A DNA stretch of 13,039 nucleotides from SAR116 cluster bacterium (GTDB taxonomy: Bacteria > Pseudomonadota > Alphaproteobacteria > Puniceispirillales > Puniceispirillaceae), in contig NYTO01000096.1 in the NCBI GenBank assembly GCA_002683535.1, forward strand, positions 3,790 to 16,828, read 5' to 3'. Under the pieces are notes generated by a model, which saw only the letters and a list, made by a program, of their open reading frames with translations, did not search any database and was not told where the DNA came from. This document shows positions 1 through 13,039 of the stretch, piece after piece. A program made the translations under genes and the position numbers. Numbering within the stretch: position 1 is the first letter of the stretch; every line of letters begins with the position of its first letter.

Positions 1-465
1 CTGGATGATCTGGTGGCATCGGGAAAAATCCGTGCCGTTGGTGTTTCGAATTTTCGGTCGTGGGACATGGATCTGCTGCAGTCGGCCATGAAGACACCAA
101 TTGTCACCAACCAGATTGAAATCAGTGTGCTGCACCACGCGCCTTTCACCAATGGTGATATTGCCTGCCTGCAGCAGCGCGGCATCGCACCGATGGCCTG
201 GTCGCCGCTGGCGGGCGGCGCGCTGTTCAGCCCGGAAAATCAGGCGCTGCACGCGGAAATCAGCAATGTGGCTGCCCGGCTTGGCAGCGATGTTACGTCG
301 GTTGCAATAGCCTGGCTGATGGCGCATCCGGCACGGATCATGCCGGTCATGGGAACCAATAATCTGCAGCGCATTGCCGGTTTCGGCAAAGCTGCCGAGG
401 TAACTGTCGACCGCCAGACATGGTATGAAATCTATACGGCGGCACTTGGCGAAGAGGTGCCCTAA
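1..465 (+). CDS. Aldo/keto reductase, YdhF-like (3' part only)
   Basis: This is the C-terminal part of an NAD(P)H-dependent aldo/keto reductase; the reading frame is open at the left window edge, so the start and the catalytic N-terminal half lie outside. About 154 residues are visible. The segment GKIRAVGVSNF is the hallmark strand and helix of the AKR barrel, and it is followed by NQIEIS, by MAWSPLAGG (the cofactor-side strand) and by VMGTNNLQR near the C-terminus. The end, with a Trp-rich helix and then AALGEEVP, resembles from memory the end of E. coli YdhF, a cytosolic reductase of unknown natural substrate. It lies 80 bases upstream of a TRAP transporter on the same strand, so it may be co-transcribed and may act on the imported compound; that link is inference. 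The family call is secure, the substrate is unknown. Confidence 0.88.
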   Translation: MDDLVASGKIRAVGVSNFRSWDMDLLQSAMKTPIVTNQIEISVLHHAPFTNGDIACLQQRGIAPMAWSPLAGGALFSPENQALHAEISNVAARLGSDVTSVAIAWLMAHPARIMPVMGTNNLQRIAGFGKAAEVTVDRQTWYEIYTAALGEEVP

Positions 466-525
466 GATAGCACAAGACAACAACGGCGCAGAGCGGGATC
501 AACCCGCCAGGCTGTAAGGTTAACC

Positions 526-530
526 GGAGG
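526..530 (+). promoter_or_regulatory. Distant ribosome binding site for the TRAP small permease
   Basis: GGAGG is the only good Shine-Dalgarno match upstream of the ATG at 546, but it sits 15 bases away instead of the usual 5 to 9. No alternative in-frame start lies between. Just upstream are a GCGGG/CCCGC stem with a five-base loop (493-507) and the perfect palindrome GGTTAACC (518-525), either of which could be a regulatory element or chance. Confidence 0.4.
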
Positions 531-545
531 AAAACAACTGCCCGC

Positions 546-1133
546 ATGGCACTTCTACTGACAATCCTGAAACCGCTTGAATGGTTCAACGACTGGGCTG
601 GCCGGATTGGCCGCAACCTGTCGGTGGCTGCGATTGCCATTATGGTGATCGTCATTCTGCTGCAGGTGTTCTTCCGTTATGTGCTGAACAACGCCCTGCC
701 GTGGCCGGACGAGGCAGCCCGTTTCATGATGCTGTGGCTGACCGGGCTGATGGCACCGGTGGCGCTGCGTCAGGGCGGTATGGTGGCGATAACCGGCCTT
801 CTGGAATTGTTTCCGGCCCCGGTTCTGAAAGTCATCTCTATCCTGCTTTTGTGCCTGTCGCTGCTGGTTCTGGTGATCGCCGTTCAGCTTGGCTGGAAGC
901 ATGTCAATTCTGGCTGGCTGTTTGCGAGTTCTTCGCTGCGTCTGCCCCTTGGGCTGTTCGGGATGAAGGCGCAGAAGCTGAAGCTGGCCTGGATGTATAT
1001 GTCGCTGTTTACCGGCGTCTGCCTGATGATTGTCGTCAATGTCGAGTTGATCCTGCGATCGCTGGTATCATTTCTGGGTGGGGATAATCATCTGCGCCCT
1101 GTCCCCGGCACAAAAGCGGTGGAGCCAGGCTGA
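546..1133 (+). CDS. TRAP transporter small permease (DctQ family)
   Basis: This 195-residue inner-membrane protein is the small, four-helix subunit of a tripartite ATP-independent periplasmic transporter, which drives uptake with an ion gradient. Hydrophobic segments are visible at about residues 28-48, 58-74, 86-117 and 143-168. The family signature is present: a Gln-Val-Phe-Phe-Arg-Tyr-Val segment ending the first helix, then LPWPDEAARFMMLWL with its conserved Trp/Glu. The C-terminal tail after the last helix is somewhat long and hydrophilic. Its stop overlaps the start of the large permease gene by one base (TGATG), indicating translational coupling. The ATG at 546 is the only reasonable start, although its Shine-Dalgarno is distant. 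The substrate cannot be predicted from this subunit. Confidence 0.93.
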   Translation: MALLLTILKPLEWFNDWAGRIGRNLSVAAIAIMVIVILLQVFFRYVLNNALPWPDEAARFMMLWLTGLMAPVALRQGGMVAITGLLELFPAPVLKVISILLLCLSLLVLVIAVQLGWKHVNSGWLFASSSLRLPLGLFGMKAQKLKLAWMYMSLFTGVCLMIVVNVELILRSLVSFLGGDNHLRPVPGTKAVEPG

Positions 1134-2422
1134 TGCTAATCTGGTTCCTTCCCGTCTTTCTGATGTTCCTGCTGCTAGGTCTGCCGGTGATGTTTGCGCT
1201 GTTATCGGCGCCGGGCCTGTTGTTGTGGCTGAACGGGCAGGAGCGCGATATCACGCTGCTCTACCGCAATGTGTATAACGGCATTGACAGTTTTCCGCTG
1301 ATGGCAATTCCGTTTTTCATGCTGGCCGGCGAATTGATGAATCGCAGCCGGATAACCGAACGGCTGGTCGAATTTGCGCAAGCGATGATGGGGCATCTTC
1401 GTGGCGGTCTGGCGCATGTGAACATATTGTCTTCAATGCTGTTTGCCGGCCTGTCGGGATCGGCAGTGGCAGATACGTCGGCGCTTGGCTCCATGCTGAT
1501 CCCGGCAATGGAAAAGCAGGGCTATTCACGCAAGTTCTCGGCTGCCATCACGGCGGCAAGTTCGGTGATCGGCCCGATTATTCCACCATCCGGCATCATG
1601 ATCATCTATGCCTATGTCATGGGTGAAAGCGTCGCCGCGCTGTTCCTTGCGGGCATCGTGCCGGGCATACTTGTTGGTGTTGGTCTGATGCTGACAGTGT
1701 CATGGATGGCGGATCGCTATAATTTTCCGGTGGCCACACGACGCTACAGCTGGCGAGAACGCGGCGGGGCCAGCCTGAAGGCGTTCTTCCCGCTGATGAC
1801 ACCGGTGATCATCCTTGGCGGCATTCTGGGCGGGATTTTCACCCCGACCGAGGCCGCGGCTGTTGCTGTCGGCTATGCCGTCTTTATCGGTCTGTTTGTC
1901 ATGCGAACGATACAGATAAGAGACCTTCCTGATGTGATGGCGCGCGCCGCGCTGACATCGGCTGTGGTGCTGCTGCTGGTTGGTGCGGCGATGGCGTTCA
2001 AGACTGTTGTCAGCCTCAGCCATGCGCCAGAAATTCTGGCAGCTCTCATTCTGTCCATTTCAGAGAATCCGCTTATCCTGCTGTTTTTGATCAACATGCT
2101 GCTGTTTGTTGTCGGCATGTTTCTGGACGCTGGGCCGGCCATCATTATTCTGGGTCCTATTCTGGGCCCCATTTTTGTCAGCATGGGTATTGATCCTGTG
2201 CATTTTGCCATAATCATGAGTGTGAATTTGACGGTGGGGCTTGCCACACCGCCAATGGGGTTGGTGCTGTTTGTGGCATCATCCGTGTCGGGAGAGAGGA
2301 TCGAGAATATCGCACGCGCCATACTGCCGTTTCTGGCAGTTGAAATCGCGACGATCTTTCTGATCACCTATGTTCCGGCCATTTCAATGACAATACCCAG
2401 ACTAACCGGGTTTGTTGACTGA
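1133..2422 (+). CDS. TRAP transporter large permease (DctM family)
   Basis: This 429-residue, strongly hydrophobic inner-membrane protein is the ion-coupled channel subunit of the TRAP system, of typical length for DctM (about 425-435). Family hallmarks are visible in order: PFFMLAGELMNRSRITERLVEFA (about residues 60-82), GLSGSAVADTSALGSMLIPAM (about 103-123), IGPIIPPSGIMIIYAY (about 146-161), the FTPTEAAAVAVGYA segment (about 236-249), and near the C-terminus the VGLATPPMG motif. These correspond to the conserved helical hairpins that hold the transport and sodium sites in characterised homologues. It starts one base inside the stop of the small-permease gene, with GGTGGAG upstream as Shine-Dalgarno, and is followed 23 bases later by the binding-protein gene. 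Confidence 0.96.
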   Translation: MLIWFLPVFLMFLLLGLPVMFALLSAPGLLLWLNGQERDITLLYRNVYNGIDSFPLMAIPFFMLAGELMNRSRITERLVEFAQAMMGHLRGGLAHVNILSSMLFAGLSGSAVADTSALGSMLIPAMEKQGYSRKFSAAITAASSVIGPIIPPSGIMIIYAYVMGESVAALFLAGIVPGILVGVGLMLTVSWMADRYNFPVATRRYSWRERGGASLKAFFPLMTPVIILGGILGGIFTPTEAAAVAVGYAVFIGLFVMRTIQIRDLPDVMARAALTSAVVLLLVGAAMAFKTVVSLSHAPEILAALILSISENPLILLFLINMLLFVVGMFLDAGPAIIILGPILGPIFVSMGIDPVHFAIIMSVNLTVGLATPPMGLVLFVASSVSGERIENIARAILPFLAVEIATIFLITYVPAISMTIPRLTGFVD

Positions 2423-2445
2423 CCTTTGAACCCAGGGAGGACCAA

Positions 2446-3501
2446 ATGAAAGCAGGGTTTCTTAAGGCGACGCTTGTGGCGGCCATGATGGCGGTTACTG
2501 GTGTGGCACAGGCAGCCGATTACACCATTCGTGCGACTGCCAATTCCAATGAGAATGACGAGGACTATGACGGTCTGATTGTTTTCAAGAACTATGTAGA
2601 GAGTGCCTCGAACGGTGCCATCGCTGTTGAACTCTTCATCGGCACGCAGCTTTGTTCGAAAGGCGCGGAGTGCCTTCAGGGCGTAGCTGACGGGTCTATC
2701 GATGTGTATATTTCCACATCGGGCGGTGCCGCTGGTATTTTCCCGTATGTCCAGGTTCTCGATCTGCCATATCTGATGGCTGATGATCGGGTTGCCGAGC
2801 ATGTTCTTTCAAGTGACTTCACCCGCACCATGCGTGACATGGCGCTTGATGATTCAGGGGGGAAGATTCGCCTGATGACCATCGGCAATACCGGTGGCTG
2901 GCGCAACTTTGCCAACACCAAGCGGCGTGTTCAGAATCCGGGCGATATGGCCGGGCTGAAGATTCGTACGGTTGTTGCTGATCTGCCGCAGGAACTGGTT
3001 CGTGCGCTGGGTGCATCCCCAACACCGATTCCATGGCCAGAGCTGTTTACCAGCTTCCAGACAGGTGTTGTCGAAGGCTCCAAGAACGGCATCACCGACA
3101 TCATGGGCATGAAGTTCCCTGATGCGGGTCTGCAATATGTCACGCTCGATGGCCACGCCTATATGGGCGCGTTGTGGTGGATGAGCAATGACACATTTAC
3201 GGCCATGCCAGAAGAAATGCGTCGTGTGGTTGTGGATGGCTTTGCCCAGCTGCAGCAGGCGACCTTTGCTTCGCCAAAGCGCAAGTCGATTCAGGCCTAT
3301 GCTGATTTTGTTGCCGGTGGTGGTGATCTGTACGTTCCGACACCTGCAGAAAAGGCAGCATTCAAGGACGCTGCTGCACCGGTCTATGACTGGTTCAAGT
3401 CGAATGTTGATGGTGGCGACAAGATCTTCAACGCGCTGACCAGTGCCGTAGTAGATGCTGAAGCCGACATTAATGACGGCCGCAAAAAGGACCTGATGTA
3501 A
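2446..3501 (+). CDS. TRAP transporter substrate-binding protein (DctP family)
   Basis: This 351-residue periplasmic binding protein delivers substrate to the permease pair encoded just upstream. A Sec signal peptide is clear: Lys residues at 2 and 7, a hydrophobic core, and a likely cleavage after AQA at about residue 23. The DctP fold signature follows: a hydrophobic-edge segment VLDLPYLMADD (about 104-114), GNTGGWRNF (about 147-155), and GLKIRT with Arg174, the position equivalent to the arginine that binds the substrate carboxylate in most TRAP binding proteins. PTPIPWPELFTSFQTGVVEG (about 192-211) is the usual next block. Cys70 and Cys76 are the only cysteines seen and could form a periplasmic disulfide. 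A perfect AGGGAGG lies five bases before the ATG. The conserved Arg suggests an organic acid ligand, otherwise unknown. Confidence 0.95.
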   Translation: MKAGFLKATLVAAMMAVTGVAQAADYTIRATANSNENDEDYDGLIVFKNYVESASNGAIAVELFIGTQLCSKGAECLQGVADGSIDVYISTSGGAAGIFPYVQVLDLPYLMADDRVAEHVLSSDFTRTMRDMALDDSGGKIRLMTIGNTGGWRNFANTKRRVQNPGDMAGLKIRTVVADLPQELVRALGASPTPIPWPELFTSFQTGVVEGSKNGITDIMGMKFPDAGLQYVTLDGHAYMGALWWMSNDTFTAMPEEMRRVVVDGFAQLQQATFASPKRKSIQAYADFVAGGGDLYVPTPAEKAAFKDAAAPVYDWFKSNVDGGDKIFNALTSAVVDAEADINDGRKKDLM

Positions 3502-3558: not shown

Positions 3559-4074
3559 CTATCTGAACGGATAGAGCCACACCCGATAGTCATCAATCAG
3601 CTCATGCGCTTCTTCTATTTGCTCAGATGTCATTTTCTTGATTACTTCTTCCTGGCTTATGGCCGCGTCAGGGTCGCCGCCAATGGCCGACAGCACATAC
3701 CACATATAGGCGCGCACCAGATCGGGCGCCGGCATGCCAAGGCCAAGCTCGTAGTACCAGCCGATACCGGATTGCGCACCCGGATGGCCCTTCATGGACG
3801 AGCGCAGATACCATTCAAACGCGCGCTGATGGTCCTGTTCAACGCCAAGGCCCATTGCGTACATCACGCCAATCAGCTCTTCAGCATCGGCATTGCCGGA
3901 CCGCGCTGCCGGCCACAGTTGCTTGTATGCCTCTTCGAACCGGCTGGCCTCCATAAGGTCGCGCGCATGTTCAATTTCGGCATAGGCCGGTTGCGCTGCG
4001 GCCATGGCCAGTTGCAGAATAAGTGCGATCGCAATTACCGGGGCTCTTGCCTTGCTATAATGAAGAATGTTCAT
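3559..4074 (-). CDS. Secreted Sel1-repeat protein
   Basis: This 171-residue protein has an N-terminal Sec signal peptide (Lys8/Arg10, hydrophobic core about 12-27, likely cleavage after AYA at residue 32), so it should be periplasmic or outer-membrane associated. The mature part carries at least two Sel1-like (TPR-type) repeats: residues about 45-80 include an alanine-rich helix then LIGVMYAMGLGVEQD, and about 81-117 include AFEWYLRSSMKGHPGAQSGI then YYELGLG. A third, degenerate repeat contains AYMWYVLSA. Such repeats are protein-protein scaffolds; no enzymatic role is implied and the partner is unknown. The start at 4074 is supported by the signal peptide and by a weak TTGAGA upstream. It runs divergently from the di-heme cytochrome gene, and the first 15 bases of the two coding sequences overlap. 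Confidence 0.85.
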   Translation of the reverse strand: MNILHYSKARAPVIAIALILQLAMAAAQPAYAEIEHARDLMEASRFEEAYKQLWPAARSGNADAEELIGVMYAMGLGVEQDHQRAFEWYLRSSMKGHPGAQSGIGWYYELGLGMPAPDLVRAYMWYVLSAIGGDPDAAISQEEVIKKMTSEQIEEAHELIDDYRVWLYPFR

Positions 4075-5388
4075 CTGATCTCAATTCTTGTTTTTCTGTT
4101 TGCTGGCGTGCCATCGGTGGCTTCCGTATTCCCGGCACCGATGAGTGATGCTGACTATCATAGCTTTTCGGCAGATCGCGCCAAGATCGGACAGCTGTTA
4201 TTCTATGACAAGATTCTGTCTGGCAACCGGAATATTTCCTGCGGCACCTGTCATCATCACCGCTTTGGCGGCACGGACGGATTGTCGCTTGGCATTGGTG
4301 AGGGTGGAATTGGCGTGGGGCCGGACCGCCACCCGGGCAGGGGTGAGTCGCGGATACACAAACGCATTCCGCGCAATGCCAGTGCGCTGTGGAATCTGGC
4401 GGCAAAGAACTTCACAGTCCTGTTCCATGACGGGCGGCTGGCACTGGCCGATGATTTTGACAACGGCTTTAATACACCGGCCGAGGAATGGCTGCCACAC
4501 GGGCTGGAAAGCGTGTTGGGAACGCAGGCTATTTTCCCGATGACCGCACAGTTCGAGATGGCCGGAAACCCGAAGGAAAACGAGGTTGCCGGCGCGCTGC
4601 ATGACCGGATAGATGCGGTCTGGCCAATTCTTGCCAAACGTGTACGGGTGATCCCCGAATATGGTGATATGTTTGTCGCTGCGTTCGATGATCTGGATGC
4701 CGCAGAGGACGTAACCATTGCCCATATTGGCGAGGCGCTGGCGGCGTTCATTGCCATCGAATTCAGGTCTGATGATGCGCCTTTTGACAGATTCCTTGCG
4801 GGTGAAAGGGGCGCGCTGACGCTGCGCCAGCAGCGCGGGGCCGAATTGTTTTACGGCAAGGCAGGATGCGCCGAATGTCATAGCGGGCCGTTATTGACGG
4901 ACCAGAAATTTCATGCGCTGGCAATTCCCCCATTCGGGCCCGGGCGCACCCGCCGGTTTGACCCCTATACGCGCGATGTCGGGCGGATGGGCGAGACGGA
5001 TGACCTTGATGACGCCTACCGCTTTCGTACGCCGTCACTGCGAAATGTCGCGTTGACAGCGCCATATGGCCATAACGGGGCCTATGCTGATCTTGACGGA
5101 ATCATCCGCCATCACCTCGATCCGCAGGGCAGTTTCGATGCGTGGCAGACACATATGGCACAGCTTCCAGACGCGCCGTGGCTGGCCGCAATAGATTTCG
5201 TGGTGTGGCAAGACCGGTTCGAAATCGCCCGTGTCCGCGCCAAGATTGATATCAAACCGCGCCAGCTTGCCGAAGACGAGATCGGGGCGCTGATTGACTT
5301 CATGAGCGCGCTGACTGGCGCCAGCACCGCCAATCCACCCTTTGGTGTTCCCGAACGGGTGCCTTCAGGATTGCCAGTCGACCGATGA
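4060..5388 (+). CDS. Di-heme cytochrome c peroxidase / MauG family protein
   Basis: This 442-residue protein has a short Sec signal peptide (about residues 1-22) and two covalent heme c sites: CGTCH at 61-65 and CAECH at 270-274. The surrounding blocks are those of bacterial di-heme peroxidases and MauG: IGQLLFYDKILSGNRNISC before the first heme, a Met-containing FPMTAQFEMAG segment (about 159-169), GAELFYGKAGC before the second, and FRTPSLRNVALTAPYGHNGA (about 322-341), which is the usual His-containing block near the C-terminus. It should act in the periplasm, either reducing hydrogen peroxide or oxidising a protein or small-molecule partner; these cannot be told apart here. The frame stays open far upstream, but the ATG at 4060 is chosen because it alone gives a signal peptide. 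The downstream 61-residue gene overlaps its stop by 4 bases. Confidence 0.92.
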   Translation: MKNVHLISILVFLFAGVPSVASVFPAPMSDADYHSFSADRAKIGQLLFYDKILSGNRNISCGTCHHHRFGGTDGLSLGIGEGGIGVGPDRHPGRGESRIHKRIPRNASALWNLAAKNFTVLFHDGRLALADDFDNGFNTPAEEWLPHGLESVLGTQAIFPMTAQFEMAGNPKENEVAGALHDRIDAVWPILAKRVRVIPEYGDMFVAAFDDLDAAEDVTIAHIGEALAAFIAIEFRSDDAPFDRFLAGERGALTLRQQRGAELFYGKAGCAECHSGPLLTDQKFHALAIPPFGPGRTRRFDPYTRDVGRMGETDDLDDAYRFRTPSLRNVALTAPYGHNGAYADLDGIIRHHLDPQGSFDAWQTHMAQLPDAPWLAAIDFVVWQDRFEIARVRAKIDIKPRQLAEDEIGALIDFMSALTGASTANPPFGVPERVPSGLPVDR

Positions 5389-5605: not shown

Positions 5606-5640
5606 AAAAAGTCGGTGAACGGTTCGAGAAGATCCGTTCC
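5606..5640 (-). terminator. Rho-independent terminator of the hps-com operon
   Basis: On the minus strand, GAACGG (5639-5634) pairs with CCGTTC (5622-5617). Beyond one T-T mismatch two more base pairs close a five-base loop. A run of five T residues (5610-5606) follows six bases after the stem. The element starts about 26 bases after the comE stop, as expected for the end of this operon. Confidence 0.65.
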
Positions 5641-5665
5641 ACGTGCCCTGTTAGGCCTTTATGGG

Positions 5666-6220
5666 CTAGGCCTCTATGGCGCTCATGAAGCGATCGCGAA
5701 TTGTGACAGGATCCATGGTTATGACTGGCATCTTCGCATTGCCGCTTTCGCACTTGCAGACGATAATTGTCATTTGTCCAGAATCCAGGGCTTCTTGAAG
5801 TACTGTGCCAGTATTTTCAGCAGAACATTCAATCACCCTTTCACAACCACATGCCTCGGCAACTTTGCTAAGCGACGTTTTTCGTCCAGCATAAGTTGGT
5901 TGATCCCCGGTGGAACCATAGGAGCCATTATCGACAATCAGCAGGATGAAGTTGTTGGCCGGGTTGTTCGCTATCGTCGGCAACGTTCCCAAATTCGTGA
6001 GCACAGATCCGTCACCATCAATCGAAATGACCGGTTTTGGCTGAGAAAGTGCAAGCCCCAATCCAATTGAAGATGCCAGCCCCATGGTGCCGAGCATATA
6101 GAAGTTGGTTGGCTGATCATCGATTGCATGGAGTTCCTGACTGGGAATCCCGATATTGCAGACCACCAGTTGATCGCGGAGGATAGGCGCAATTTCCTTT
6201 AGTATTTCTGATCTAATCAT
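5666..6220 (-). CDS. comE: Sulfopyruvate decarboxylase, beta subunit (ThDP-binding half)
   Basis: This 184-residue cytosolic protein is the thiamine-diphosphate (PP) half of a split ThDP decarboxylase. The ThDP/magnesium motif runs from Gly69-Asp70-Gly71 to Asn98 with the expected spacing of about 27 residues, and YMLGTMGLASSIGLGLAL (about 41-58) is the usual block ahead of it. Length and split organisation match ComE of coenzyme M synthesis and its catabolic relatives in marine bacteria, which with ComD convert 3-sulfopyruvate to sulfoacetaldehyde and carbon dioxide. A phosphonopyruvate decarboxylase would be the main alternative, but no phosphonate gene is nearby whereas DHPS dehydrogenase genes are. 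The start lies one base after the comD stop, with GGGGAGGG as a very strong Shine-Dalgarno inside comD. It is the last gene of the operon. Confidence 0.85.
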   Translation of the reverse strand: MIRSEILKEIAPILRDQLVVCNIGIPSQELHAIDDQPTNFYMLGTMGLASSIGLGLALSQPKPVISIDGDGSVLTNLGTLPTIANNPANNFILLIVDNGSYGSTGDQPTYAGRKTSLSKVAEACGCERVIECSAENTGTVLQEALDSGQMTIIVCKCESGNAKMPVITMDPVTIRDRFMSAIEA

Positions 6221-6221
6221 C

Positions 6222-6725
6222 TCAGTACCCTCCCCAAAAGGATGCGTCTGTCAGGATGGCAACTGGCTTGTTGCACATAAATGTGTATTTCAGGATTTTG
6301 TCGAGTTCTTCTACATCATCACGATGGTGAAAATGATAAGTTGGAATATGAAGCTGTGCCAGCAACGACTTTGTATGAACAGCCATCTCAACCTGACAAG
6401 CGACAGGCTCTCCAAGTTCACCACGATAAGAAATAAGCATCGGAAGTGGCATTCTGTAGAACTGTGTGAGGGTCGCCAATGTGTTGATTGTCACGCCGAT
6501 AGCCGTGTTCTGCATGATGATTGCAGGCCGCTTGCCTCCCATGAAGGCGCCAGCGCATAAACCCATGCCCTCATCTTCCTTGTTGGACGGGATATGACGG
6601 ATTTCCTTGCGTGCATCAATTTCGTCAATGACCCCGGCCAGCTGCTTGCAGGGCACTGTTGTCACGAAAGATACGTCATTCGCAACAAAGTCATCGACGA
6701 TCCTTTTGTTAATATCCTCTTGCAT
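6222..6725 (-). CDS. comD: Sulfopyruvate decarboxylase, alpha subunit (PYR half)
   Basis: This 167-residue protein is the pyrimidine-binding (PYR) domain of a split ThDP enzyme and must pair with the adjacent ComE to bind the cofactor. The activating glutamate is probably Glu52 in NKEDEGMGLCAG (48-59). A conserved QNTAIG block (72-77) and ISYRGELGEP (98-107) follow, the latter typical of the sulfopyruvate/phosphonopyruvate group. The frame extends upstream to a start at 6890 inside the dehydrogenase gene, but that extension is basic and unlike the family. The ATG at 6725 gives the normal length of about 165 residues and has a purine-rich AGAGAGAGA a few bases ahead. Expected reaction: 3-sulfopyruvate to sulfoacetaldehyde. 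An 82-base gap separates it from the preceding gene. Confidence 0.85.
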   Translation of the reverse strand: MQEDINKRIVDDFVANDVSFVTTVPCKQLAGVIDEIDARKEIRHIPSNKEDEGMGLCAGAFMGGKRPAIIMQNTAIGVTINTLATLTQFYRMPLPMLISYRGELGEPVACQVEMAVHTKSLLAQLHIPTYHFHHRDDVEELDKILKYTFMCNKPVAILTDASFWGGY

Positions 6726-6807
6726 TTTGTCTCTCTCTGTAACTTTTCTGCGAGATGAAAGTTGATCTCTCTCTTTGTTCTGTATTACTGCCGCCCGGCT
6801 TAAAAAC
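6726..6807 (-). promoter_or_regulatory. Non-coding spacer ahead of comD with repeated GAGAGAGA
   Basis: This is the only sizeable gap among the closely packed enzyme genes of the operon. On the minus strand it holds two AGAGAGAGA tracts (6774-6766 and 6738-6730), the second placed as the comD ribosome binding site. Between them AACTTT and AAAGTT (6764-6742) form a weak six-base inverted repeat. It could hold an internal promoter, an RNA processing site or a duplicated ribosome-entry region; no clear -35/-10 pair was identified. Confidence 0.35.
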
Positions 6808-7791
6808 CTATGGAGCCAGGATAATTTTCGGTGACGCCACTTTATGAGCCCTGAGATCGGAAAAAGCTGCCGCGCCATCTTTGAGGTCACGCATCTCTAT
6901 CCAGTCCAATGAGCCAAGGTCACCATTGAAGATTGCCGCCGCAGTGTTTTGGAAATCTTCGGGCGTGTAGGTATAAGTGCCCATAAAGGTAATTTCCTGC
7001 AATGTCAGGCGCCGTGGATCGATGCCGCCGCTTGCTTCTCCAAGGCCGATATGCATGATGACCCCGCCCGGACGGGCATATTGGCAGGCCAGCGTGCGGC
7101 TTGAAGAATAACCGACAGCATCAATTACGATATCGAACTGGCCATTTGGATCCAGTTGATCAGGTTCAATGGCCCGGTGTTCACCCGCTTGCTCGACGAT
7201 TGCCCGGCGATCAGCATTCGGCTCAAGGATCACAGTGTCCTTAACGCCAAAATTTGCGAGGCTGAGGGCACTGCCAAGACCGATAGCCCCGCCGCCTATC
7301 ACCAGCGCTGACGCGCCATGCGTTGAAACAAGGCTGGTCGCCAGGCGCGAGGCATGCCAGCCACACGCGATCGGTTCGGCCAGGGCTGCCTTTTCGAAAG
7401 ACACATGATCAGGAATCTTGATAACATTTGTTTCTGGTATTGATAGCCATTGGGCAAAGGCCCCTTCACGTGGCGGCATGGAAATTATCTGGCGGTTAGC
7501 ACAGAGATTGCCACGACCAGAGACACAGTCAGCGCAGGTGCCACATGTGACCAGTGGATTGATAGTCACACGCTCGGCGTCTCGTTCGCCACCGGATATT
7601 GTCCCAGCCGCTTCATGACCCAGAATGAGTGGCGCTGGACGGCGCTCATCATGTCCAAGATAGGCGTGCATATCGGAACCACAGATACCGCATGCCTCGA
7701 CGCGGATAAGGAGTTCACCATCCTGTGGAACCGGATCTGGCGCGTCCCGAAACTCCAAAGTTTCGGGGCCATCATAAATAAGAGCCTTCAT
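6808..7791 (-). CDS. hpsP: Zinc medium-chain dehydrogenase, probable DHPS 2-dehydrogenase
   Basis: This 327-residue NAD(P)-dependent alcohol dehydrogenase belongs to the zinc-containing MDR family (sorbitol/threonine dehydrogenase-like). The catalytic zinc site is seen in CGICGSD (Cys37) and GHE (His59-Glu60). The structural zinc site is complete, with Cys83, Cys86, Cys89 and Cys97. The Rossmann motif GGGAIGLG is at 166-173, and an acidic Glu190 at the end of the next strand favours NAD over NADP. In hps clusters two dehydrogenases, HpsO and HpsP, interconvert the DHPS enantiomers through a 2-keto intermediate; this gene fits one of them. The letter P follows gene order and memory of those clusters and could be swapped with O. 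Its ATG overlaps the preceding stop by 4 bases, with GGGGGA upstream. Confidence 0.8.
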   Translation of the reverse strand: MKALIYDGPETLEFRDAPDPVPQDGELLIRVEACGICGSDMHAYLGHDERRPAPLILGHEAAGTISGGERDAERVTINPLVTCGTCADCVSGRGNLCANRQIISMPPREGAFAQWLSIPETNVIKIPDHVSFEKAALAEPIACGWHASRLATSLVSTHGASALVIGGGAIGLGSALSLANFGVKDTVILEPNADRRAIVEQAGEHRAIEPDQLDPNGQFDIVIDAVGYSSSRTLACQYARPGGVIMHIGLGEASGGIDPRRLTLQEITFMGTYTYTPEDFQNTAAAIFNGDLGSLDWIEMRDLKDGAAAFSDLRAHKVASPKIILAP

Positions 7792-8549
7792 TTTGCCGTG
7801 AATCCCCCATCAACCATCAGCACCTGGCCTGTCACATAGCTTGACGCATCAGAACACAGAAACAGCAGAGGCCCGTCCAAATCCTCGAGCGCCCCATTTC
7901 TATTCACACATGTTTGCCCAGCGTTACGTGCTGCCCTGTCATTATCAGCAAACACCGCAGCGGTAAGCTCGGTGGGAAAGAAGCCGGGGCCAATGGCATT
8001 GGCCATAATACCATGCTGTGACCAGGCTTCAGCCATTGCGCGGGTAAGCTGTGCAATGGCGCCTTTGGTTGCGCCATAGGCTATGCCACCAGGAAAGGCG
8101 CGAAATGTTTGCAGCGAGGCAAAATTTACAATCCTGCCCCACCCCTTGGCCTGCATGTGGGGTGCCAGCGCCTGACTGAGAAAGAAGGGCGCTGATAAAT
8201 TGAGGGCAATAGTCGTGTCCCAGCCCGCAGCAGTCACTTCGTTGGCGGTTTGACGTAGATTGACCCCGGCAGCGTGAACAATTATATCAGGTGCACCAAA
8301 GGGCGTGCAAATTGCGGATTTAAGTTCGTCCAAATTCTCTCGATCAGCAACATCTGCAACGACAAACGCTGCGTTGTCTCCGCCTGCAGCTTGCCATTGC
8401 GCCAAACGCGACCGACGACGCGCCACACCCACAACCTGCGCGCCAGCTGCCAGGAGAGTGTCTGCGGCCCTTAATCCAAGGCCGGAACTGGCACCGGTAA
8501 CACAAGCAATTTTGCCAGTCAGGTCAAAGAGGCCGATAGGGTTAGTCAT
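7788..8549 (-). CDS. hpsO: Short-chain dehydrogenase, probable DHPS 2-dehydrogenase
   Basis: This 253-residue classical SDR has all expected motifs: the nucleotide-binding TGASSGLG at 18-25, HAAG at 92-95, a structural Asn117, catalytic Ser145, and the Tyr158-x3-Lys162 pair. The C-terminal VDGG segment is also standard. Arginines after the second strand (about 44-48) could favour NADP, but this is weak. It probably oxidises or reduces the 2-hydroxyl of DHPS, working with the adjacent zinc dehydrogenase so that both enantiomers reach HpsN. Oxidation of sulfolactate to sulfopyruvate is an alternative role, because no dedicated sulfolactate dehydrogenase is seen nearby. Its start overlaps the end of hpsN by 8 bases and has no obvious Shine-Dalgarno, pointing to translational coupling. 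Confidence 0.8.
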   Translation of the reverse strand: MTNPIGLFDLTGKIACVTGASSGLGLRAADTLLAAGAQVVGVARRRSRLAQWQAAGGDNAAFVVADVADRENLDELKSAICTPFGAPDIIVHAAGVNLRQTANEVTAAGWDTTIALNLSAPFFLSQALAPHMQAKGWGRIVNFASLQTFRAFPGGIAYGATKGAIAQLTRAMAEAWSQHGIMANAIGPGFFPTELTAAVFADNDRAARNAGQTCVNRNGALEDLDGPLLFLCSDASSYVTGQVLMVDGGFTAK

Positions 8550-9849
8550 TTGCTGTCAGATCGAAGACTTCATCAGGAAAATATTTTGCAAGCCTGACAT
8601 CGGCTGCACGGGCGTGGCCTTCCATACCTTCAAGACGTGAAATGCGAGCCGTTGCTTCGGCGACCTGTTTTGCGCCGTCGCGGGGGGATTTCTGCCAGGT
8701 CACAATTTTCATGTATTTATGAACTGACAGCCCACCGGTATATCGCGCCGCACCGGATGTTGGCAGGACGTGGTTGGTGCCTGACGCCTTGTCTCCATAT
8801 GAGACTGTTGTCTCTTCACCAAGGAACAGCGAGCCATAGCATGTCAGGCGGTCCAGCCACCAGTCCAGATCTTCGGCCTGAACCGTCAAATGCTCTGGTG
8901 CGTATTCGTCGGATGTGGCCGCCATTTCCTCGCGGTCTGAGCAAAGAATTACCTCGGCATAATCGCGCCATGCCGCTGCCGCATTGTCACGATTTGTTTC
9001 AGGCAGATTGTCGATCAGGGTTGGCACCAGCTCCATGACTTTTTCAGCCAGTGGCCGATCATCGGTCACCAGCCAGACGGGCGAGTTGTAGCCATGTTCA
9101 GCTTGCGACACCAGATCAGTGGCCACAATCATGGCGTCGGCTTTCGCATCAGCCAGAATGAGACTGTCCGTGGGGCCGGCAATCATGTCGATGCCAACGC
9201 GGCCAAAGAGAATTCTCTTGGCTTCCGCAACAAACTGGTTGCCGGGGCCGACAAGGATATTGGCCTCTGGCATGCCAAACAGTCCGAAGGTCATTGAGGC
9301 GATGCCTTGAACGCCACCCATGGCCATGATCTTGTCGGCGCCGCAAATATGGGCTGCAAATACAATGGCCGGAGCAATACCTACGCCTGGACGTGGCGGG
9401 GAACATGCGATAATCGATTCGCACCCGGCCACCTTGGCTGTGGTTACGGTCATTACCGCGCTGGCGATATGGCTGTAACGGCCACCAGGAATATAGCAAC
9501 CGGCAGCGCTGACCGGAATGGCGCGCTGGCCAGCAACAAGGCCGGGAACGACTTCAAACTCTATATCGGCAATGGTTTTTTTCTGCTGCTCGGCAAATCG
9601 GCGGACATTGTCGTGTGAAAAGCGGATGTCATCCTTTACCTTTTCAGGCACCAGCTTGCACGCCGCATCAATTTCCTCCTGCGTCAGAATGATGTTGCCT
9701 TCATACTTGTCGAACTTCGCCGCATATTCCAGCGCGACAGCGTCACCGCCAGCTTCAATATCATTCAGGATTTTCTGAACCGTCGCCGAGACATCCGACG
9801 CGCCGGTTGTAGATGTGCGATTTGACTCTTTCAGATATATGCGTGTCAT
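8542..9849 (-). CDS. hpsN: DHPS 3-dehydrogenase, histidinol-dehydrogenase family
   Basis: This 435-residue protein is a histidinol dehydrogenase homologue. The zinc ligands and catalytic pair known from HisD are all retained: Gln249 and His252 in VSQAEHG, Glu319-His320 in APEHL, Asp353 in GDKASGTNHVLPT, and His412 near the C-terminus. In this operon it is unlikely to make histidine: it sits with a TRAP transporter, two dehydrogenases and sulfopyruvate decarboxylase, the context of HpsN, which oxidises (R)-2,3-dihydroxypropane-1-sulfonate to (R)-sulfolactate in two NAD-dependent steps. The C-terminal block TGGLSVHKYMKIVTWQ (371-386) is of the type I associate with catabolic paralogues rather than with true HisD. 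It starts 12 bases after the large-permease stop (AGGG ahead of the ATG) and overlaps hpsO by 8 bases. The exact substrate rests on context. Confidence 0.87.
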   Translation of the reverse strand: MTRIYLKESNRTSTTGASDVSATVQKILNDIEAGGDAVALEYAAKFDKYEGNIILTQEEIDAACKLVPEKVKDDIRFSHDNVRRFAEQQKKTIADIEFEVVPGLVAGQRAIPVSAAGCYIPGGRYSHIASAVMTVTTAKVAGCESIIACSPPRPGVGIAPAIVFAAHICGADKIMAMGGVQGIASMTFGLFGMPEANILVGPGNQFVAEAKRILFGRVGIDMIAGPTDSLILADAKADAMIVATDLVSQAEHGYNSPVWLVTDDRPLAEKVMELVPTLIDNLPETNRDNAAAAWRDYAEVILCSDREEMAATSDEYAPEHLTVQAEDLDWWLDRLTCYGSLFLGEETTVSYGDKASGTNHVLPTSGAARYTGGLSVHKYMKIVTWQKSPRDGAKQVAEATARISRLEGMEGHARAADVRLAKYFPDEVFDLTAND

Positions 9850-9861
9850 AGTCTGGGAACC

Positions 9862-11190
9862 CTATTGGTAAATTTCAGGTAATAAACTTGTCGAAATTGC
9901 TGGCACGAATGCAATCAGCAGCACCACGACAAGCATGCAGAGGACAAAAGGTACGGCGCGCGCTGCTATTCTCAAAATTGACTCGCCGGTAATGCCCGAT
10001 ACTACAAACAGGTTCAGCCCCAATGGCGGCGTGATAAATCCAACGCCAAGAGCCGTGATCATCATTACACAAAACTGGATCTCATTCATGCCGATATTAT
10101 CGGCAAGCGGCTTGAGAATAGGCGCAAGAATAACAATGTTTGGCGTCGTTTCCATGACGCATCCAGCCGCTATCAGAATGCCAATCATCATCAGGATCAG
10201 CAGATATGGATCATCTGTGAGCGAGGTCGCTGCGCCAACAAACCCCTGTGGCACTCCCATGATTGCAAGCGCTTGAGCCAGCGGCAGCGAAAACGCGATG
10301 ATGGGAAGAATGACACCGTTAACCTTGGCCGAGCTGACCAGCATTGCCGGAAAGTCGGATAGTTTCAACGTTCCCAGAATGAAGCCGATGATAATGGTTA
10401 CAATAACAGCTGTTGCACCAGCTTCGGTCGGGGTCAGCCGTCCGGAAAAAATGCCATAGAAAATGATCCCCGGAACAACGAATGCGTACCATCCCGATTT
10501 TACAGACGCCACAAGTCTGGCAAACCATTCGGAAAAGCTGATCAGGCTGCCCTGTTCATAGGCATGAATGCGGTTCATGACGATGTTCGTCACCAGGATT
10601 GCTGTCAGGATCGCAAGTCCCGGAATGACGGCGGCCAGGAACAAGGTTGATGCCGATATGCCAAGCACAAGGCCGATGACGATATAGGCAATCGAAGGGG
10701 GGATTAGGATACCGGTACAGGCTCCCGCCGCAACAAGTGCGCAGGCATATGGGCGTGAATACCCAGACTCGACAAGTCTGGCAATTGTCATTCGTCCGAC
10801 GGCCGCCGCCCCTGCTGCATCAGAGCCAGAGATGGCGGAAAACATGCCACAAACCAGAACAGTGGCCGATCCAAATCCGCCTTTGGCCCAGCAGGTCAAC
10901 GCTTCGGCAACATCAAGAAACTTGCGTGACAGCCCCGCGCGGACAAGAACATCTCCTGTCAGGATGAAAAGTGGCACAGCTGTTAGGGCGAATGCATCAA
11001 TGCCGTCGAACAAACTCTCACCAACAAGGCTGAGAGGCAGATCACCGGACATCAGCAACATGGTGATTGCAGCTGCACCAATGGCTGCCCAGACGGGAAT
11101 CGCCAGAGCGATCAGACCAACAAACATGATGACTGGAAGATAAAAATCCCAGCCGAGTTCTACTGTCTGATTAAGTGTGTTCCAGAGCAT
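9862..11190 (-). CDS. hpsM: TRAP transporter large permease, probable DHPS uptake
   Basis: This 442-residue polytopic inner-membrane protein is a DctM-family ion-coupled permease. Visible signatures include LFILTGDVLVRAGLSRKFLDVAEAL (about 75-99), the SGSDAAGAAAVGRM block (about 120-133), GILIPPSIAYIVIG (about 158-171), LTPTEAGATAVIV (about 251-263) and GVGFITPPLGLNLFV near the C-terminus. The ATG at 11190 is taken as the start; a TTG six bases upstream is possible, and neither has a strong Shine-Dalgarno. It follows the small-permease stop by 11 bases and is followed by hpsN after 12. The substrate, DHPS, is inferred from the catabolic genes in the same operon. The K, L, M lettering follows gene order and is less certain than the subunit type. 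Confidence 0.9.
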   Translation of the reverse strand: MLWNTLNQTVELGWDFYLPVIMFVGLIALAIPVWAAIGAAAITMLLMSGDLPLSLVGESLFDGIDAFALTAVPLFILTGDVLVRAGLSRKFLDVAEALTCWAKGGFGSATVLVCGMFSAISGSDAAGAAAVGRMTIARLVESGYSRPYACALVAAGACTGILIPPSIAYIVIGLVLGISASTLFLAAVIPGLAILTAILVTNIVMNRIHAYEQGSLISFSEWFARLVASVKSGWYAFVVPGIIFYGIFSGRLTPTEAGATAVIVTIIIGFILGTLKLSDFPAMLVSSAKVNGVILPIIAFSLPLAQALAIMGVPQGFVGAATSLTDDPYLLILMMIGILIAAGCVMETTPNIVILAPILKPLADNIGMNEIQFCVMMITALGVGFITPPLGLNLFVVSGITGESILRIAARAVPFVLCMLVVVLLIAFVPAISTSLLPEIYQ

Positions 11191-11201
11191 CGCCAAATCA
11201 C

Positions 11202-11714
11202 TCAGTCAAAAAGTTTATTGCCTTCATAGACGGGCGTGCCGTTACGAAGGCTGTTGATGTCATTGCGGAGCGACTGCAAAAGGCGCCACACCATAAGCGC
11301 AAATCCAATGGGAACAGCCATGAGGAACCACACCATGGACACTCTGAGGCCATGACTGACTGATCCGAATTTGGCAGAAACCAGAACAGTTTCAAATGAC
11401 CAGTAGAGGGCGATGACAGCCACGCCCATCATCATCAGGTCACCAAAAATATATGTCAGCGTCCTGGCGCGCGGCCCGAGGTAGTTCAACAGGACGTCAA
11501 TCCGAATATGCGCACGGTCCCTGACAGCGGCTGCGGCACCAATCCAGGCAAGATAGATAAAGGAATAGCGTACGATTTCTTCGCCCCATATTGATGAATA
11601 GGCAAAGACCTCGCGGCGCAATACTTCCACGGCCATGGTCGTTACAAGCATCACGTAAAAGATCAAAAGCAACCAGCGTTCGGCATTCTGGTCTATGAGG
11701 CGCAGCGCGTTCAT
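11202..11714 (-). CDS. hpsL: TRAP transporter small permease, probable DHPS uptake
   Basis: This DctQ-family inner-membrane protein of 170 residues has four hydrophobic segments at about residues 15-33, 48-66, 86-107 and 126-147. The family pattern EVLRREVFAYSSIWGEEIVRYSFIYLAWIGAA (about 31-62), with its Trp-Gly-Glu-Glu helix, is clear, as is the following RDRAHIRIDVL block. An in-frame GTG at 11744 would add ten residues, but the ATG at 11714 is preferred because it has AAGGGA seven bases ahead. It pairs with the large permease encoded immediately downstream and the binding protein encoded upstream. A 170-base spacer containing a hairpin separates it from the binding-protein gene. Confidence 0.9.
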   Translation of the reverse strand: MNALRLIDQNAERWLLLIFYVMLVTTMAVEVLRREVFAYSSIWGEEIVRYSFIYLAWIGAAAAVRDRAHIRIDVLLNYLGPRARTLTYIFGDLMMMGVAVIALYWSFETVLVSAKFGSVSHGLRVSMVWFLMAVPIGFALMVWRLLQSLRNDINSLRNGTPVYEGNKLFD

Positions 11715-11721
11715 GGATATA

Positions 11722-11727
11722 TCCCTT
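11722..11727 (-). promoter_or_regulatory. Ribosome binding site deciding the small-permease start
   Basis: AAGGGA on the minus strand lies seven bases before the ATG at 11714. No comparable site precedes the in-frame GTG at 11744, so the shorter protein is preferred. Confidence 0.6.
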
Positions 11728-11737
11728 CGAGGGTGTC

Positions 11738-11755
11738 TTGCCACTGAATTGGCAA
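11738..11755 (-). other. Short inverted repeat in the small-permease leader
   Basis: TTGCCA and TGGCAA, separated by six bases, form a perfect six-base inverted repeat about 25 bases upstream of the permease start. It could be a small RNA hairpin in the leader or a dyad operator, or could be chance; nothing else in the sequence decides. Confidence 0.25.
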
Positions 11756-11836
11756 TTTCGTTCTAGAGGGGCGCCGTAGATAATTTTTCACCAGTCTGGT
11801 CTGCATGATGGTCGTTTAGCCCAGTTGGTAAAACTG

Positions 11837-11877
11837 AAAAAAGGAAGTGGTGGGCACAAACCGAATTCGTGCCCACC
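11837..11877 (-). terminator. Hairpin and T-tract after the binding-protein gene (attenuator)
   Basis: On the minus strand a perfect 9-bp GC-rich stem (11877-11869 with 11857-11849) encloses an 11-base loop. Six bases later comes a run of six T residues (11842-11837). It starts 8 bases after the binding-protein stop. Because the permease and enzyme genes continue on the same strand, it most likely acts as a partial terminator and 3'-end stabiliser, giving more binding protein than permease, rather than as the operon end. An independent promoter in 11760-11836 is the alternative. Confidence 0.75.
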
Positions 11878-11884
11878 TTTGATC

Positions 11885-13039
11885 TTAGGCGTCGTGTACG
11901 TAGTACTTGCCTTGGGTGTTTGCGGCGTCTTCCAATTTGCCGAATTTGGCCATTGAACCCGCAAGATCCTTCTTGAAGGAATCCCACTCAGAGCGCTGAT
12001 AGCCGCCAGCAGCTTTCCACTCAGCAAGCTGATCATCGCTGAGAGAGTGGAACTGAACCCCTGACTTGGCAAGCTCGGACATCGCGTAGCCACGAGCAGC
12101 AGGCACTTTTGCAAGGTTCATATGACCGGTCATCTCAGACCCCCACATCACACCTTCCTGCACGTCTGATGGCAGGCTGTTGAACCATTCGAGGTTACAG
12201 GAATAAACCTGACTGTCCGGAACGGCCTGTGTGAATGTGACGTGGCTCAGGATATCCTTGAAACCAAATACATACAGTGCACCAACGGACGGATCCAAAG
12301 CGTCAGCAACACCCTGCTTGATGGCTGAAGGTGTTTCACCCCAGGCCACAGGTGTCGGGTTGGCCCCAACCATCCGGTAATATTGCTGAAGCATCTTCGA
12401 TCCAGGGACGCGGAACTTCACACCGGACAGATCGCCAGGCGTGATAACTGCTCCGGCACCACCTTTACGAACCGCAACGACCCGAGGGTCAATGTTGACG
12501 TAGAACAGAGCCTTGAAACCGTTCTGCTCAACTTTCGGGTGAACTTCCTTGTTCCAGAAGTCAGAATGTACCAGATTTGTGAAGCGCTGGTTCGAGCCGC
12601 ACAGGTAAGGCATGTTGATCAGGTCAACCGTCGAGGCAAATGGCGCAAAGTTGGACAGTGAATGCTGGGCAGCCTGGATGGTGCCCGACTGAACTTTCTG
12701 CACAAGCGCGCCACCAGCGCCGAGCTGGCCGCCGGGTGCAAGCTTTACATAAACTTTACCATTCGTTCCGTTTTGGATGTTTTCTTTCAGATCCAGCTGC
12801 AGAATCGGGTAGCTGCGCGATGCGCCGAGCACATATGCTGTAGCAACTGTCATCACGTGATCAGCTGCGTTTTCGCGCTCCTTCTCTTCGGCGGCTGTTT
12901 GTGCAATGGCCTCTTTCGACCACAGCATGCCGTTGGCTCCAACGATAAGCGCTGCCGTGAAACTGCCGCCCGCGGCAAGTTTCAAGAAGTTGCGCCGCTC
13001 AAGGGACTTCAGTTCTTTTGTGTCGTTATTCAATTTCTT
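11885..13039 (-). CDS. hpsK: Tat-exported TRAP substrate-binding protein, probable DHPS uptake (start outside window)
   Basis: This DctP-type periplasmic binding protein is the first visible gene of the sulfonate operon. The frame remains open to the right edge, where only a TTG (13033) could start it, so the true start probably lies just beyond. About 384 residues are present. A twin-arginine signal is clear: LERRNFLKLAAGG, a hydrophobic stretch, then a likely cleavage near AIAQ, about 45 residues in. The mature protein has the DctP features VDLINMPYLCGSNQRF and GVKFRV, whose Arg (about 208 from the TTG) occupies the ligand-binding arginine position, then GANPTPVAWGETPSAIKQG. Tat export implies folding before export. 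DHPS as ligand is inferred from the operon. The hairpin after the stop suggests higher expression than the permeases. Confidence 0.9.
   Translation of the reverse strand, partial: KKLNNDTKELKSLERRNFLKLAAGGSFTAALIVGANGMLWSKEAIAQTAAEEKERENAADHVMTVATAYVLGASRSYPILQLDLKENIQNGTNGKVYVKLAPGGQLGAGGALVQKVQSGTIQAAQHSLSNFAPFASTVDLINMPYLCGSNQRFTNLVHSDFWNKEVHPKVEQNGFKALFYVNIDPRVVAVRKGGAGAVITPGDLSGVKFRVPGSKMLQQYYRMVGANPTPVAWGETPSAIKQGVADALDPSVGALYVFGFKDILSHVTFTQAVPDSQVYSCNLEWFNSLPSDVQEGVMWGSEMTGHMNLAKVPAARGYAMSELAKSGVQFHSLSDDQLAEWKAAGGYQRSEWDSFKKDLAGSMAKFGKLEDAANTQGKYYVHDA

Follow-up and report, generated by a model that had tools for sequence, protein, structure and literature searches.

The window analyzed here, a stretch of 13,039 nucleotides from a SAR116 cluster bacterium, corresponds to bases 3790-16828 of contig C49 in an assembly of 1.47 Mb that is 59% complete. 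Eight minus-strand genes form one run from position 13033 to 5666, encoding a tripartite ATP-independent periplasmic (TRAP) transporter, three dehydrogenases and both halves of a split thiamine diphosphate (ThDP)-dependent decarboxylase. Based on the similarity of these proteins to characterized ones, we consider it very likely that the genes constitute an operon for the uptake and catabolism of 2,3-dihydroxypropane-1-sulfonate (DHPS), a compound described as a globally abundant currency passing from phytoplankton to bacteria (PMC11131964). The genes, in their order of reading, are as follows:

11885..13033, minus strand: hpsK, TRAP substrate-binding protein (Pfam DctP; 86% identical to PDB 24gc)
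11202..11744, minus strand: hpsL, TRAP small permease (DctQ), assigned by its place between hpsK and hpsM and a weak family match of 28.5 bits
9862..11196, minus strand: hpsM, TRAP large permease (DctM; TIGR00786, 305.8 bits, cut-off 268.45)
8542..9849, minus strand: hpsN, predicted HisD-fold R-DHPS 3-dehydrogenase with R-sulfolactate as expected product (80% identical to 8wwe; active-site residues; GRYSH motif)
7788..8549, minus strand: hpsO, short-chain dehydrogenase/reductase (SDR), predicted R-DHPS dehydrogenase (383 bits to 8wwf; S145, Q147, Y158, K162)
6808..7791, minus strand: hpsP, Zn-dependent dehydrogenase, predicted S-DHPS dehydrogenase (60% identical to 8wwd; H59, E60, E139)
6222..6725, minus strand, ATG at 6725: comD, predicted sulfopyruvate decarboxylase alpha subunit (TIGR03845, 148.7 bits, cut-off 147.95)
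5666..6220, minus strand: comE, predicted sulfopyruvate decarboxylase beta subunit (TIGR03846, 239.3 bits, cut-off 221.5; GDG motif at residue 69)

This run and its order, proposed in a first-pass annotation of the sequence, were recovered from the reading-frame list and the family scans, as were the overlaps of 8 bases between hpsN and hpsO and 4 bases between hpsO and hpsP and the single base separating comD from comE; hpsP and comD are 82 bases apart. The eight genes are presumably co-transcribed. The terminator scan returned no intrinsic terminator 3' of comE, and the 71 bases following that gene fold no better than shuffled sequences (z -0.81), for which reasons no terminator is claimed there. 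At its other side the operon runs past the end of the window, which thus cuts off the promoter region, the regulator and a small first gene.

Transporter and dehydrogenases

The alignment of HpsK with 24gc, titled 'DHPS TRAP transporter', extends over 338 positions with a score of 649 bits, the next PDB chain scoring 69 bits. The gene starts with TTG, preceded by an AGGAGG-like site just past the window end, and the protein carries a putative Tat-like signal. Adjoining the gene for this close homolog of the DHPS-binding protein are those for the Q and M permeases (hpsL and hpsM), and an hpsL homolog occupies the same place in relatives. We expect from these resemblances that HpsKLM binds and imports DHPS in the window organism. 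In Ruegeria pomeroyi, a mutant in SPO0591 (hpsKLM) showed a reduction in growth on DHPS of 78.6% and in its drawdown of 64.8% (PMC10130141).

The three dehydrogenases point in the same direction. A search of the HisD homolog against characterized HpsN proteins, as the first-pass annotation had proposed, found the 80% match to 8wwe, its nearest solved relative, titled '(R)-DHPS dehydrogenase', and a 56% match to 8v35, 'sulfopropanediol 3-dehydrogenase'; judged from their titles and residue numbers, these are probably the enzymes of R. pomeroyi and Cupriavidus, respectively. Active-site residues, chosen from the discussion and the mutational work in PMC11131964 and PMC11382572, were located by position, and the alignment of HpsN with 8v35 is free of gaps, the numbering of the 8v35 chain being that of the paper plus one. 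HpsN has H127, E319, H320, D353, H360 and H412, among which E319, H320, D353 and H412 represent the catalytic Glu/His pair, the Zn-ligand Asp and the C-terminal His; the enzyme is expected to oxidize R-DHPS to R-sulfolactate. The 8wwf chain matched by HpsO is titled '(R)-DHPS dehydrogenase HpsO', and HpsO keeps both the triad S145, Y158 and K162 and the R-selective Q147, whose roles are taken from PMC11131964. HpsP has all three of its checked residues, its match 8wwd being titled a zinc-containing alcohol dehydrogenase.

A second HpsN-like gene (41%) lies elsewhere in the material analyzed, on contig C93 (locus L004, 7757-11078, minus strand), where it is cut by the contig end and is followed by SDR-like and LacI-like matches; this group is possibly a paralogous cluster.

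Downstream route and alternative readings

Both putative ComDE subunits pass the curated sulfopyruvate decarboxylase models, in agreement with the split ThDP decarboxylase recognized at first pass. The gene for the next enzyme, xsc, is present in the window genome (G000) on contig C55, with 896.3 bits against a cut-off of 676.4, and exceeded that cut-off in all seven relatives tested. Three genus mates are designated G001, G002 and G003 here, of which G001 and G003 are each 99% complete. The xsc gene of G001 (L124, 319-3279) adjoins a divergent frame that, by sight, we take to be TauD-type dioxygenase-like, and since this frame lies beside xsc, taurine may also feed the Xsc of G001.

Assembled from these parts, the pathway would begin with import of DHPS by HpsKLM. 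HpsN would convert R-DHPS to R-sulfolactate, while HpsO and HpsP would convert R-DHPS and S-DHPS, respectively, to sulfolactaldehyde, which an aldehyde dehydrogenase encoded elsewhere would oxidize to sulfolactate. A sulfolactate dehydrogenase encoded outside the operon would then yield sulfopyruvate, ComDE would decarboxylate this to sulfoacetaldehyde, and Xsc would release acetyl phosphate and sulfite.

Several observations weigh against this assignment. The best PDB match of HpsO is 6le3, titled 'Gluconate 5-dehydrogenase' (388 bits), and ComD, scanned as the longer frame 6890-6222, clears its curated cut-off by a small margin only. A search of the window genome, 59% complete, with E. coli HisD matched HpsN only, so that no separate HisD was found there. 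The most substantial point concerns the oxidation of sulfolactate. A query with an slcD-like gene (the oxidase gene of related clusters, described below) gave no match on the window contig, on locus L015 or on those contigs of G001 and G003 that carry the operon; the best genes in the rest of the window genome have identities of 40% and 36%, with a further fragment at 38%, and those of G001 and G003 reach 41%, with others at 34-35%. In G001 and G003, three Ldh_2 proteins reach 179, 142 and 241 bits, where the sulfolactate dehydrogenase cut-off is 500. One Ldh_2 protein of G001, whose gene neighbors match those of its counterpart in G000, was considered as a candidate ComC for the missing step; among PDB entries it matches a piperideine-carboxylate reductase (257 bits) better than sulfolactate dehydrogenase (146 bits). 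With no slcD in the operon and distant slcD-like genes outside it, the route has a gap. These searches for an exit from sulfolactate covered SlcD-like and Ldh_2 proteins; SlcC, SuyAB, CuyA and GabD-2 were not searched. An slcD-like gene at 50-51% identity is present in four of seven relatives searched, one of them G002, whose genome likewise contains an hps operon; a further one of the seven, G011, gave none at E 1e-30.

Three other readings of the cluster were weighed. The HisD homolog could be an enzyme of histidine biosynthesis and the cluster could serve amino acid metabolism, given that HpsN passes the histidinol dehydrogenase model TIGR00069 with 442.8 bits, that its annotated relatives carry the name hisD and that the window genome yielded no second HisD. 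However, HpsN is only 35% identical to E. coli HisD, and its residues 123-127 read GRYSH where HisD has G-S-A-P-L, G-R-Y-A/S-H being the motif given for HpsN in PMC11382572. In a tree of 19 rows (of 23 prepared, four were omitted, their extracted frames being too short), the window protein, 8wwe and 8v35 stand opposite E. coli HisD and the HisD-type protein of G003 across a 100/100 branch, a placement with which the identities and the motif agree; long branches were flagged by the program, and the window group joins 8wwe at a fork with values of 92/96. The clustering with true histidinol dehydrogenases that the first-pass annotation had named as a refutation thus did not occur. Separate HisD-type genes, each 44-45% identical to E. 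coli HisD, are also present in G001-G003. We reject a HisD identity for the window protein and regard a histidine cluster as extremely improbable.

The remaining two readings concern the substrate. ComDE might decarboxylate phosphonopyruvate, linking the cluster to phosphonates, as could be suggested by the narrow ComD margin and by the solved relatives found for ComDE, which are titled putative phosphonopyruvate decarboxylase subunits or are unnamed ThDP proteins. The phosphonopyruvate decarboxylase model, however, gives scores of 76.8 bits (ComD) and 134.6 bits, far below its cut-off of 312.5, and comDE lies beside the hps dehydrogenase genes in 49 of 80 related loci; we consider this reading highly unlikely. 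Slightly less remote, and still very unlikely in our estimation, is that a neighboring sulfonate such as sulfolactate is the main substrate and DHPS a secondary one. ComDE does belong to the sulfolactate/sulfopyruvate branch (PMC11382572), and a TRAP system for isethionate is known (PMC4334477), but relatives of all three dehydrogenases act on DHPS, the residues for stereospecificity are kept, and the binding protein is 86% identical to that of a DHPS transporter. The assignment to DHPS made at first pass is therefore well supported by HpsK, by HpsN with its place in the tree and by the active-site residues.

Probable regulator, candidate operator boxes and a microprotein gene next to hpsK

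Past the end of the window, a divergent gene of the LacI family occupies positions 17248-18270 of locus L003, and between it and the operon, at about 17115-17066, are two LacI-type palindromes, TGTAAGCCCTTACA and TGTAAGCGCTTACA. Among the best 80 HpsN loci of one scan of other genomes, 80-92% identical, 14 had no usable LacI gene or interval and were left out of the count; in 65 of the other 66 the box occurs, with up to two mismatches, in the region between the LacI gene and the operon (119 sites, versus one in all remaining sequence of these loci). The box is a strong candidate for the operator of HpsR, and the operon is probably regulated by the LacI-type protein.

Directly upstream of hpsK, 29 bases past the window end, is a minus-strand frame of 57 residues with two hydrophobic stretches (L003, 17030-16857), the length of which ranges from 57 to 68 residues among relatives. 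By tblastn this microprotein was found in 52 of the 54 loci that bear hpsK, and the other two (L042 and L084) show at that place a frame of suitable length, not confirmed as the microprotein; the 26 loci that lack hpsK, of which some are short, gave no match. Pairwise comparison of 53 copies gave an amino-acid-changing difference smaller than the silent one in all 1378 pairs (means 0.27 and 0.71), which indicates a protein under selection. A profile from 15 copies was then run at E 1e-4 on two genome samples that share three genomes, the window genome included. In the class sample of 385 genomes, the microprotein was found in 17 and hpsK (E 1e-100) in 15, every one of the latter being within the 17; in the two genomes without an hpsK match (G067 and G151) the microprotein is less than 370 bases from a contig end, in the direction in which hpsK would be expected. 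In the phylum sample, the same 10 of 398 genomes have both (hpsK at E 1e-60). In all 22 distinct hpsK genomes the two genes share a strand, the microprotein lying 25-106 bases upstream of hpsK between match ends. Because the profile was built from hps loci only, it could overlook distant homologs next to TRAP systems of other kinds.

The microprotein had no match in NCBIfam and none above cut-off in Pfam, and its place in Leisingera and Rhodovulum is annotated as a hypothetical protein. In R. pomeroyi the locus numbers listed in PMC4334477 leave no gap between hpsR and hpsK. A search of the literature, covering open-licence full texts, found no TRAP-linked small protein of this kind. We favor a functional tie between the microprotein and HpsKLM, and consider it possible, at somewhat less than an even chance, that it is a true accessory part of that transporter. 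We further speculate, with similar reserve for the two parts taken jointly, that the DHPS TRAP transporter has four parts, the two-helix microprotein being indispensable to it as an accessory subunit or as an assembly factor, and that G000, G001 and G003 feed ComDE through a sulfolactate dehydrogenase other than an SlcD encoded next door. A fourth TRAP component, if true, would surprise transporter specialists.

Neighboring genes and comparison with known clusters

The rest of the window holds genes of other kinds. A separate cluster (window 1-3501 and L003 269-4254) comprises a GFO/IDH/MocA dehydrogenase and a GntR regulator on the minus strand and, on the plus strand, a luciferase-like monooxygenase, an aldo-keto reductase and a second TRAP transporter. 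At 3559-5388 a minus-strand gene for a Sel1-repeat protein is overlapped by the listed start of a plus-strand di-haem cytochrome c peroxidase/MauG frame, the true start of which is probably further in because the Pfam match begins at residue 192. Scans of the window found no tRNA genes and no RNA families above gathering score.

The 80 HpsN loci show how common the arrangement is. Seventy hold hpsO and hpsP, 54 hold hpsKLM with hpsM immediately preceding hpsN, comD and comE are both present in 49, and all eight genes in 32; these counts are lower bounds, as 16 loci have less than 4.5 kb after hpsN, and their recurrence argues that the gene order is not due to chance. The direct joining of comDE to the dehydrogenase genes, singled out at first pass, is true of the window; closeness of comDE to these genes is nevertheless not special, given its occurrence in those 49 loci. 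The commonest layout, in 27 of the 64 loci with at least 4.5 kb after hpsN, is KLM-N-O-P-UspA-comDE followed by an slcD-like oxidase gene. Of the 49 loci with comDE, 32 have a UspA-family gene that separates hpsP from comD (for example L094, 12070-12480); it is not present there in the window operon, G001 or G003. The exact layout of the window, without hpsQ/UspA and slcD, recurs in one of the 64 loci, L015 of a genus mate (L015 is the same contig as C80 of G003), and the eight-gene block is found in the same order in G001 and G003 with 81-97% identity. The oxidase after UspA may be SlcD, judging by its place, as in the R. pomeroyi list (PMC4334477), and by the annotation 'alpha-hydroxy acid oxidase' in Leisingera.

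In a set of 60 relatives, HpsN of the type with 78-92% identity was found in three of 11 genomes of the same genus, in G021 (where a contig end cuts it) and in four genomes of family f2; another 27 that match at E 1e-150 hold an HpsN type at 54-60%, and the other 25 gave nothing at this threshold. We weighed a horizontal acquisition from Roseobacters, on which the HpsN tree, weak in its forks near the window protein, does not decide. With this finding, a gene set for DHPS uptake and oxidation is placed in a lineage of alphaproteobacteria beside the better-known Roseobacters.

Clusters of this system are already described (PMC4334477 and PMC11382572), as is the SPO0591 mutant (PMC10130141). R. 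pomeroyi DSS-3 has SPO0590 hpsR (LacI), SPO0591-0593 hpsKLM, SPO0594-0596 hpsNOP, SPO0597 hpsQ (UspA) and SPO0598 slcD (PMC4334477), and thus shares with the window operon a LacI-family regulator, the TRAP transporter and the three dehydrogenases in the same order; hpsQ and slcD follow hpsP there, whereas comDE directly follows it here. The match in set and order to R. pomeroyi that was claimed at first pass therefore stands for hpsKLMNOP but not for the com genes: comC is SPO3187, comD does not occur in the text of PMC4334477, and the organism is described as using a CuyA route (PMC11382572). Nor does the claim fit Cupriavidus pinatubonensis JMP134, the cluster of which is hpsRNOUPsuyAB (PMC11382572); it shares the HpsN, HpsO and HpsP enzymes but has the major facilitator superfamily transporter HpsU in place of TRAP and the lyase SuyAB in place of ComDE. 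Closer are the clusters of Jannaschia sp. CCS1, Ruegeria sp. ANG-S4 and Granulosicoccus, in which hps genes occur with SlcD, ComDE and Xsc (PMC11382572): these share hpsNOP with comDE and the Xsc route of sulfolactate breakdown, whereas the window operon is without slcD and its xsc is on a separate contig. Leisingera, Ruegeria, Sulfitobacter and others with the commonest layout have all eight genes in the same order, and differ in having the UspA and slcD-like genes, neither of which is in the window operon. The more useful by-products of the comparison are the transporter-linked microprotein and the candidate HpsR operator. The window operon is a well-supported member of the described DHPS system with a slightly shorter layout, and the microprotein is its main new lead.

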